From assembly GCA_016190985.1 (NCBI GenBank), contig JACPPI010000017.1, positions 1 through 64,000 of the forward strand: a stretch of DNA of 64,000 nt. Reading direction: 5' to 3'. Both the position numbers and the translations under genes were made by a program. Position 1 is the stretch's first letter. The number at the start of each line of letters is the position of its first letter. Source of the stretch: Opitutia bacterium (GTDB lineage Bacteria > Verrucomicrobiota > Verrucomicrobiia > Opitutales > Opitutaceae). Shown one piece after another: positions 58,834-59,919 of this stretch. A model generated the notes under the pieces. It ran no database searches. It was given only the letters and a program-made list of their open reading frames with translations, and was not told where the DNA came from.

Positions 58834-59919
58834 ATGCAAAAATCATTTTCCGTCGGCACCAAGATCTTCGTGCTCGACCAGGACAAGGCCGAGGCCGCGT
58901 TCGCCGCCAAGAAGGTCATCAACGGCCGCCAGGTTCCCTACTTCAACATCCTCCCGCTCAAGTTCCAGTGGGCCTACGATCTCTACAAGACGATGAAGGC
59001 CAACCACTGGGAGCCCGAGGACATCCCGATGGGCAAGGACATCGAGCAGTGGCGCGACACCAAGCACGTGTCCGACATCGAGCGCTGGATCATCCGCATG
59101 GGCATCGGCTACTTCTCCGCCGCCGAGGGGATCGTCGGCGACAACATCCAGCATGTCGTCCGCGAGATCGTGACCGCCCCCGAGCTGAAGCTCGTCCTCG
59201 GCCGTCACGCCCACGAGGAGAACATCCACGCCGACTCCCTGCTCTACATGATCTCCTCCCTCGGCATCAACCCGCACGAGTGCGAGGCGATGTTTGAGGA
59301 CATCAAGTCCATCGAGCGCAAGAACGAGTTCGTCAACAAGGTCTCCCAAGACCTCCGCCGCGACCTCGACATGACTAAGCCCGAAAACAAGAAGCTCCTC
59401 GCGAAAAACATCTTCGTCTTCGGCCAGTGCATGGAGGGCACCCAGTTCTACGGCCTCTTCGGCATGGTCCTGTCGCTTTACCGCCAGAACAAGTTCCCCG
59501 GCATCGGCCAGATGTTCCGCTACACCCTCCGCGACGAGTCGAACCATATCGAGCTCTTCCGGAACCTGTTCATGGACCTCATCGAGGAGAACCGCGAGAT
59601 CTGGACCGCCGACTTCAAGGAGGAGCTTCGCGCCACTATGGCCGAGGGCATCGTCCTCGAGAAGGACTTCATCCGCGACTGCCTGCCGGTCAACGCCGTG
59701 GGCCTCTCGATCGACGAATTCCTGATCTACATCGACTACATCGGCGACCGCCGCCTTGAAGGCTGCGGGCTCACCCCCTTGAGCCCCGGCGTCAAGAACC
59801 CCCTGCCGTGGCTCGCCGAGATGATGGACATCAAGAAGGAGCAAAACTTCTTCGAAGGTCGCGTCACCGAATACCAGAAATCCTCCGCGCTCGCCGTCGC
59901 GAGCGACGACGAGCTCTGA
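58834..59919 (+). CDS. nrdB: Class I ribonucleotide reductase small subunit, tyrosine-less (class Ic-like)
   Basis: Makes the protein cofactor that starts deoxynucleotide synthesis. Start ATG 58834 gives 361 residues. Metal ligands align one-for-one with E. coli R2: E98 (SAAEGIVGDN), E129 and H132 (EENIHADSL), E201 (CMEGTQF), E235 and H238 (DESNHIELF), with identical spacing. The radical tyrosine position (Y122 in E. coli) is L136, and the first ligand is Glu instead of Asp. Both features are found in the Chlamydia class Ic enzyme, which uses a Mn/Fe cofactor without a tyrosyl radical. A C-terminal Tyr (VTEYQKSS) for radical transfer remains. nrdA follows 44 bases later. Confidence 0.95.
   Translation: MQKSFSVGTKIFVLDQDKAEAAFAAKKVINGRQVPYFNILPLKFQWAYDLYKTMKANHWEPEDIPMGKDIEQWRDTKHVSDIERWIIRMGIGYFSAAEGIVGDNIQHVVREIVTAPELKLVLGRHAHEENIHADSLLYMISSLGINPHECEAMFEDIKSIERKNEFVNKVSQDLRRDLDMTKPENKKLLAKNIFVFGQCMEGTQFYGLFGMVLSLYRQNKFPGIGQMFRYTLRDESNHIELFRNLFMDLIEENREIWTADFKEELRATMAEGIVLEKDFIRDCLPVNAVGLSIDEFLIYIDYIGDRRLEGCGLTPLSPGVKNPLPWLAEMMDIKKEQNFFEGRVTEYQKSSALAVASDDEL

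Follow-up and report, generated by a model that had tools for sequence, protein, structure and literature searches.

Class I ribonucleotide reductases (RNRs) are grouped by the residue at the radical-tyrosine site and the first metal ligand of the radical-generating subunit, R2 (NrdB); the pairings given in passages of PMC8463856 are Tyr/Asp for classes Ia and Ib, Phe/Glu for class Ic and Tyr/Glu for class Id, and the main text of that paper holds no word beginning "Leu". The extent of class Ic differs between sources. A narrow definition, with Phe at the site, appears in passages of PMC3824934, which cite Hogbom 2010 for leucine, isoleucine and valine; in passages of PMC6370689 the site may be Phe, Leu or Val, and it is in this way that NrdBzc of the RNRdb scheme is defined. 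Phe or Leu is also given for the site in class O ferritin-like proteins (passages of PMC9531940), and class Ic enzymes have long been known outside the Chlamydiota, in haloarchaea (passages of PMC3019208).

An earlier note on the present DNA had stated that known class Ic enzymes carry Phe, and that a Leu variant outside the Chlamydiota broadens the group. In light of the passages just cited the first statement is out of date, and the second is not new, because Leu variants are in print and haloarchaeal class Ic is known. The protein described here, with Leu at the site, falls outside the narrow definition and inside the wider one. No measurement of the cofactor of a Leu-, Val- or Ile-type R2 was found in the open-licence literature.

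The nrdB-nrdA locus and its genome

The locus lies in a stretch of 64,000 nucleotides (the window), and its coordinates are given as positions within that window. The nrdB gene occupies 58834-59919 on the forward strand, a complete reading frame from ATG to TGA for 361 residues, and is matched by Pfam PF00268 (Ribonuc_red_sm; 2.1e-62) and by NF005550 (319.3 bits against a cut-off of 309). Alignment shows all six metal ligands to be present: Glu98 (codon 59125-59127), the first ligand, at the place of E. coli Asp84; Glu129 and His132 in the EXXH motif Glu129-Asn-Ile-His132 (59218-59229); Glu201 (59434-59436); and Glu235 and His238 in the second EXXH motif, Glu235-Ser-Asn-His238 (59536-59547). 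The place of the radical tyrosine is taken by Leu136 (codon CTG, 59239-59241), aligned with E. coli Tyr122 and C. trachomatis Phe127, and the C-terminal radical-transfer tyrosine is Tyr347 (59872-59874; C. trachomatis Tyr338), which is 100% conserved in the Leu, Phe and Tyr groups. The alignment bears out what the earlier note had said of Leu136 and Glu98; the constant offset of 14 from E. coli numbering that it reported holds for D84, E115, H118 and Y122 and fails for E204, E238 and H241, where the offset is -3.

The pairing of Leu with Glu sets the protein apart from classes Ia and Ib, which have Tyr with Asp as first ligand (and NrdI for Ib), and the retention of every ligand without the tyrosine sets it apart from class Ie, in which the site is Tyr/DOPA and the metal carboxylates are lost. 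The best sequence match in the PDB is the class Ic R2c of C. trachomatis (E 6.8e-75; PDB 1syy, 4d8g, 4m1i). The two proteins are about 38% identical and share the fold, six ligands with Glu first and a redox-inert residue at the site, and W51, Y129, F197, Y222 and Y338 of the chlamydial protein have kept counterparts here (W59, Y138, F205, Y230, Y347).

Downstream of nrdB, across a gap of 44 bases, is a complete nrdA (59964-63335, forward strand) encoding a catalytic subunit of 1123 residues with the Pfam domains ATP-cone (NrdA residues 157-240) and, for the barrel, Ribonuc_red_lgN and Ribonuc_red_lgC. The motifs NLCTEI, SSCYLYY, TTYYLR and a C-terminal CEAC (CxxC) were recognised by eye against a set that we take to be that of E. 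coli NrdA. Elsewhere in the window, an open reading frame at 55858-56277 presumably encodes an ExbD/TolR-type membrane protein and one at 63404-63985 presumably an NgoMIV-like restriction endonuclease. There was no Rfam match at gathering score, and thus no upstream riboswitch match, over 57000-64000.

The draft genome (2.95 Mb in 34 contigs, 99.47% complete, Verrucomicrobiota) has one match to PF00268 and one to PF02867, the class I/II barrel, which is its NrdA; PF02867 also matched a control Thermus genome, whose RNR we take to be of class II. Neither NrdD nor NrdI had a match in this 99.47% complete draft. The nrdB-nrdA pair is the only RNR found in the draft genome searched, although a gap could hide another, and an enzyme that is the single RNR of its genome should work in vivo.

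The possibility that the subunit is inert or has another job, as an R2lox-like oxidase, a decoy subunit or a pseudogene, is to be weighed here, given that R2 copies without ligands exist in the family, one of them beside an intact copy. The protein is, however, the sole R2 match of its genome and adjoins a complete nrdA, it is strongly conserved, and all its ligands and the C-terminal Tyr are kept. R2lox proteins have Ala at the place of F197/F205 (passages of PMC4118035 and PMC3824934) and lack both the C-terminal Tyr and an R1 partner, whereas this protein has F205, Y347 and an adjacent nrdA. We regard such a role as extremely unlikely.

The order of the genes differs from that in C. trachomatis, where the operon is nrdA-nrdB (passages of PMC3019208). 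In counts that include some genes fetched twice, loci whose best R2 is at least 50% identical to the query have nrdA downstream of nrdB in 158 cases and no nrdA match in 5; at 30-49% identity nrdA is upstream in 39 loci with no match in 11, and at 20-29% it is upstream in 21, downstream in 2 and without a match in 9.

Tandem R2 genes stand before nrdA in three Verrucomicrobiota genomes, at 7239-8324 and 8447-9529 in locus L136, at 8216-7134 and 6993-5896 in locus L137, and at 5476-6447 and 6607-7626 in locus L138. The second copies in the first two of these loci keep all ligands and the Leu but have His138 and Asn230. In the first copy of locus L138 four ligands are replaced (E98Q, H132R, E235V, H238R) and the C-terminal Tyr is gone, although the acidic tail is kept; by its sequence this copy would resemble an inert partner subunit, for which yeast Rnr4 is the comparison. 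Genome G371 has a single R2 match (locus L140, 5629-6602), in a gene that is broken: it lacks roughly residues 160-190, its frame is shifted, and a full-length nrdA match lies behind it; the broken gene is either an assembly error or a pseudogene.

Conservation, distribution and phylogeny of the Leu-type R2

A first survey matched 111 loci, two of them the window's own gene, with 98 distinct sequences among them, and all 111 have Leu at the site. From 224 full-length R2s, 140 distinct full-length sequences were then taken that are at least 70% identical to the query, itself included, and every one of them has Leu136 and Glu98; the best identity to the query of any Phe- or Tyr-type sequence in that set is 39.1%. 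Among 142 genes (the relatives and three paralogues) the Leu codon at site 136 is CTC in 64, CTG in 56, TTG and CTT in 8 each, CTA in 4 and TTA in 2. All six Leu codons are in use, so that what is conserved is the residue and not the codon. The earlier note had allowed for wrong base calls at 59239-59241; a sequencing error there is ruled out by a Leu that is invariant in 140 sequences through six codons. The ligands other than Glu201 are likewise invariant among the 140, and the sole ligand change is a Gln at Glu201 in one close relative (L104, 86% identity), which is either real or an error.

The nearest named records are Verrucomicrobiota, from Opitutaceae such as Lacunisphaera, Oleiharenicola and Opitutus, and record titles suggest an origin in lakes, ponds, groundwater and bogs. 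Of 387 Verrucomicrobiota genomes, 126 have an R2 that matches the query, 84 of them at 72% identity or more by hand count; the residues were read in a fetched subset of these matches. The phylum also holds Phe-type R2s, about 35-39% identical to the query, and Tyr/Asp-type R2s. In a second phylum, presumably Pseudomonadota and reached through one metagenome-assembled genome (MAG) labelled Rubrivivax (L083), 61 of 150 genomes have an R2 match, and residues were read in 30; only one match exceeds 40% identity along a full-length gene, and it lies on a 3-kb contig of that same MAG. The nrdB on this contig is of the Verrucomicrobiota Leu type (83% identity); elsewhere in the MAG lies a fragment of an Asp-type R2, and the contig is probably mis-binned.

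Phylogenetic analysis was carried out on sets from which near-copies had been removed, with an identity cut-off of 83% for the first tree and 78% for the tree that includes viral Val/Ile rows. Long-branch rows, among them the ligand-less copy of locus L138, were kept in the first tree and removed from a 66-row tree and from the viral-row tree; the latter also left out the E. coli-type rows, which the first tree kept, while the long rows L317, L320 and L323 stayed. In the 66-row tree, built without columns 98 and 136, all 25 Leu rows group in a single clade (100/96); a separate clade (99/90) holds 12 Phe rows, with 6 Tyr rows nested among them. The earlier note had counted a grouping with tyrosyl-radical enzymes against its reading, whereas the Leu proteins form this clade of their own; it does not lie inside the Phe clade in either the 66-row or the first tree, and the gene order described above agrees with this split of Leu and Phe types. 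Leu136 fits the definition of NrdBzc, yet the Leu clade stands outside the sampled Phe/Tyr NrdBz clade and is its sister at most.

In constrained trees a clade of Leu, Phe and the nested Tyr rows is not rejected (p-AU 0.546), a single tyrosine-less clade of Leu and Phe is 24.9 log units worse and borderline (p-AU 0.0589), and a single clade of Phe rows, at a log-likelihood lower by 25.8, is not rejected either (p-AU 0.101); the tree is compatible with one tyrosine loss and with several. The Tyr/Asp rows nested inside the Phe/Glu R2s (L196, L221, L222, L223, L225 and L233), one plasmid-borne and the others from the second phylum, presumably Pseudomonadota, suggest that the radical tyrosine may have been regained together with Asp.

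The second shell and residue 231

An alignment of the Leu clade with 18 Phe-type rows shows fixed or nearly fixed differences round the metals. His125 in the Leu clade is Gln in the Phe type (E. coli Trp111), Gln198 is Val or Ile, Gln204 is Phe or Trp (E. coli Arg207), Leu208 is Gly (E. coli Ser211), Met227 is Gln and Asp134 is mostly His; C. trachomatis R2c differs from the present protein at 125, 134, 204 and 208, as well as in its Phe at the site and its Ile at 231. Tyr93 is Phe in 18 of 18 Phe-type rows (E. coli Tyr79). Residue 231 (codon 59524-59526) is Thr in 100% of the Leu clade and Ile in 18 of 18 Phe-type rows; its E. coli counterpart is Ile234, which we take to pack on Tyr122 itself. 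Common to both types are W59, F205, F209, Y230, D234 and Y347, and the relay residue Y138 is kept as well.

The presence of Tyr93 raises the question of whether a stable radical sits on another nearby tyrosine instead of on residue 136, and Y48 and Y216 are also nearly specific to the Leu clade. In E. coli, though, the counterpart Tyr79 is hydrogen-bonded to Glu283 (passages of PMC5623701), from which it is taken to point away from the metals, and 33% of the Tyr-type NrdBz relatives likewise have Tyr at residue 93; furthermore, the Asp that hydrogen-bonds the tyrosyl radical in classes Ia and Ib (passages of PMC8463856) is Glu here. A radical on another tyrosine is therefore very unlikely.

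The change at residue 231 falls in a place of known function. In E. coli, Ile234 with Phe208 and Phe212 makes a hydrophobic pocket, said to serve dioxygen binding, and Phe208 sits between the metals and the tyrosine (passages of PMC5623701). A Thr at this place, four residues before the Glu of the second EXXH, is a feature of class Id (NrdBi; F. johnsoniae, L. blandensis, F. ignava), where it is Thr294 in L. blandensis (PMC6754362, in part) and Thr191 in F. johnsoniae (PMC8463856, in part) and can be read in the printed chain of 6cwo; according to passages of the same two papers it hydrogen-bonds the tyrosine and keeps it off the metals.

Viral contigs scanned with NrdBz queries yielded further R2s with Glu first, an aliphatic residue (Val or Ile) at the site and Thr231 (L259, L272, L274, L275 and other IMG/VR loci). 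In other respects these differ from the Leu type: they have Q125, F or M at 204 and G208 as in the Phe type, and they are placed with NrdBz. We tabulated positions 98, 136 and 231 in 321 distinct R2s, obtained from 339 after removal of 13 with fewer than 270 aligned columns and 5 that were duplicates over columns 45-330. The states are E-L-T in 140, D-Y-I in 73, E-V-T in 66, E-F-I in 24, D-Y-S in 10 and E-I-T in 4, with one each of D-Y-V, E-Y-S, Q-L-L and K-G-I. Thr231 is thus present in 210 of 210 intact aliphatic rows (140 Leu, 66 Val and 4 Ile, all with Glu first) and in none of the 24 Phe or 85 Tyr rows; Tyr occurs in 84 of 84 Asp-first rows and is missing from 234 of 235 Glu-first rows, the exception being a viral Glu/Tyr protein (L407). 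The Q-L-L row is an R2 copy lacking four ligands.

The K-G-I row was rejected as a misalignment caused by an insert, the true site reading Tyr. It belongs to a viral R2 (L426, 2-1696) in which a long insert directly follows the EXXH/Tyr stretch (HSDSYLY). The insert begins Cys-Leu-Thr, ends Gly-Asn before Cys and looks like a candidate intein in the metal-site helix.

The pairing of an aliphatic residue 136 with Thr231 is a strong association, short of proven convergence, among rows that are kin: most Leu and most Val rows are closely related, every Val or Ile row stems from a viral contig picked up with NrdBz queries, and the set is one without class Id proteins. In the best viral-row tree the Val/Ile rows fall with NrdBz and the Leu rows apart, with two changes each for the aliphatic state and for Thr, so that the pairing would have arisen twice. 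A single clade of all 14 aliphatic/Thr rows is not rejected (p-AU 0.269), and starred branches carry only one independent aliphatic/Thr pair, which is insufficient to test convergence.

Probable cofactor and initiation of the radical

A first AlphaFold model from 30 near-identical rows reached a pLDDT of 50.5; a second, with viral relatives added, reached a pLDDT of 86.8 and a pTM of 0.85. The fold nearest to the second model is C. trachomatis NrdB (Foldseek 1.4e-20; VIA Z 41.1, rmsd 2.8, 326 aligned), followed by VIA Z by 6y2n, a Phe-type R2 by its printed sequence (39.0), Aquifex R2 (36.4), 2rcc (35.6), 6zjk (35.3), E. coli class Ia (34.9) and class Id 6sf4 (32.6). In the model the first ligand helix, residues 81-112, runs without a break, whereas the corresponding helix is unwound in metal-loaded class Id (passages of PMC8463856); a model without metals makes this weak evidence.

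The protein is most likely the functional R2 of its genome, in which no other RNR was found, and a member of a Verrucomicrobiota lineage of tyrosine-less class I enzymes. The earlier note had predicted metal-based initiation, and this gains support from Glu as first ligand, the absence of Tyr from the site, the nearness to C. trachomatis and the kept relay; by class I chemistry and the precedents of classes Ic and Id, the metal centre itself is very probably the oxidant. As to the metals, we favour a Mn(IV)/Fe(III) cofactor, with a probability of roughly two in three, since the protein is closest to that of C. trachomatis, keeps the relay residues and has an NrdA with an ATP cone.

Oxygen (or peroxide) would oxidise a dinuclear centre held by E98, E129, H132, E201, E235 and H238. 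Because no tyrosine is adjacent to it, the high-valent centre would itself act as the oxidant, its likeliest form being the Mn(IV)/Fe(III) of C. trachomatis, and would pull in an electron along a path of W59 (with D234 and H132) and Y347 that leads to the tyrosine pair and cysteine of NrdA. By analogy with the roles of C. trachomatis W51 and Y222 (passages of PMC4118035), Y230, the counterpart of Y222, may supply the extra electron during assembly. Leu136 would occupy the space of the ring, and Thr231, replacing Ile, probably makes polar contact with the solvent ligand of metal 1, perhaps by way of a water molecule.

Several observations weigh against this Mn(IV)/Fe(III) reading, namely a second shell that is not of the Phe type, Thr231 as in class Id, the position of the Leu clade outside the Phe clade, and the Gln of L104; with a second shell unlike that of Phe-type class Ic and a Thr as in class Id, Mn(IV)/Fe(III) is not implied by the sequence. 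The main rival is also metal-centred but has a dimanganese oxidant, Mn2(IV,III), formed as in class Id with superoxide or peroxide. It agrees with Glu as first ligand, with Thr at the class Id place four residues before Glu235, and with the absence of an NrdI match in the genome, class Id needing none. Yet the Tyr side chain, which is essential for activity in class Id (passages of PMC8463856), is Leu136 here; the Lys four residues after the first ligand in the studied class Id subgroup is Gly102; class Id NrdA is without an ATP cone (passages of PMC8463856), while the present NrdA has one, as in classes Ia and Ic; and sequence and fold are nearest to C. trachomatis and not to class Id. We consider a dimanganese centre unlikely.

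The association of Glu98, an aliphatic residue and Thr231 lends itself to a tentative and rather doubtful further reading, in which the aliphatic-site R2s (Leu in Verrucomicrobiota, Val or Ile in viral contigs) would be a separate type of metal-based initiator with its own metal choice or activation. Glu first, the aliphatic residue and Thr at the Ile234 place would then be its marker triad; Thr, and not a ring, would tune metal 1, and the centre would be unlike both the Mn(IV)/Fe(III) of class Ic and the Mn2(IV,III) of class Id.

In the open-licence literature we found no account of the Thr pairing, of a separate Verrucomicrobiota clade with reversed gene order or of the changed second shell. 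What is added here, a Leu clade of its own with nrdB-nrdA order, a distinct second shell and a Leu/Thr association, looks like a little-described variant. The pairing of Leu with Thr as against Phe with Ile bears on how second-shell residues choose metal and oxidant. If it is metal-based, the Leu type would be the only RNR route in at least this Verrucomicrobiota genome, and free-living bacteria would then depend on a high-valent Mn or Mn/Fe centre.
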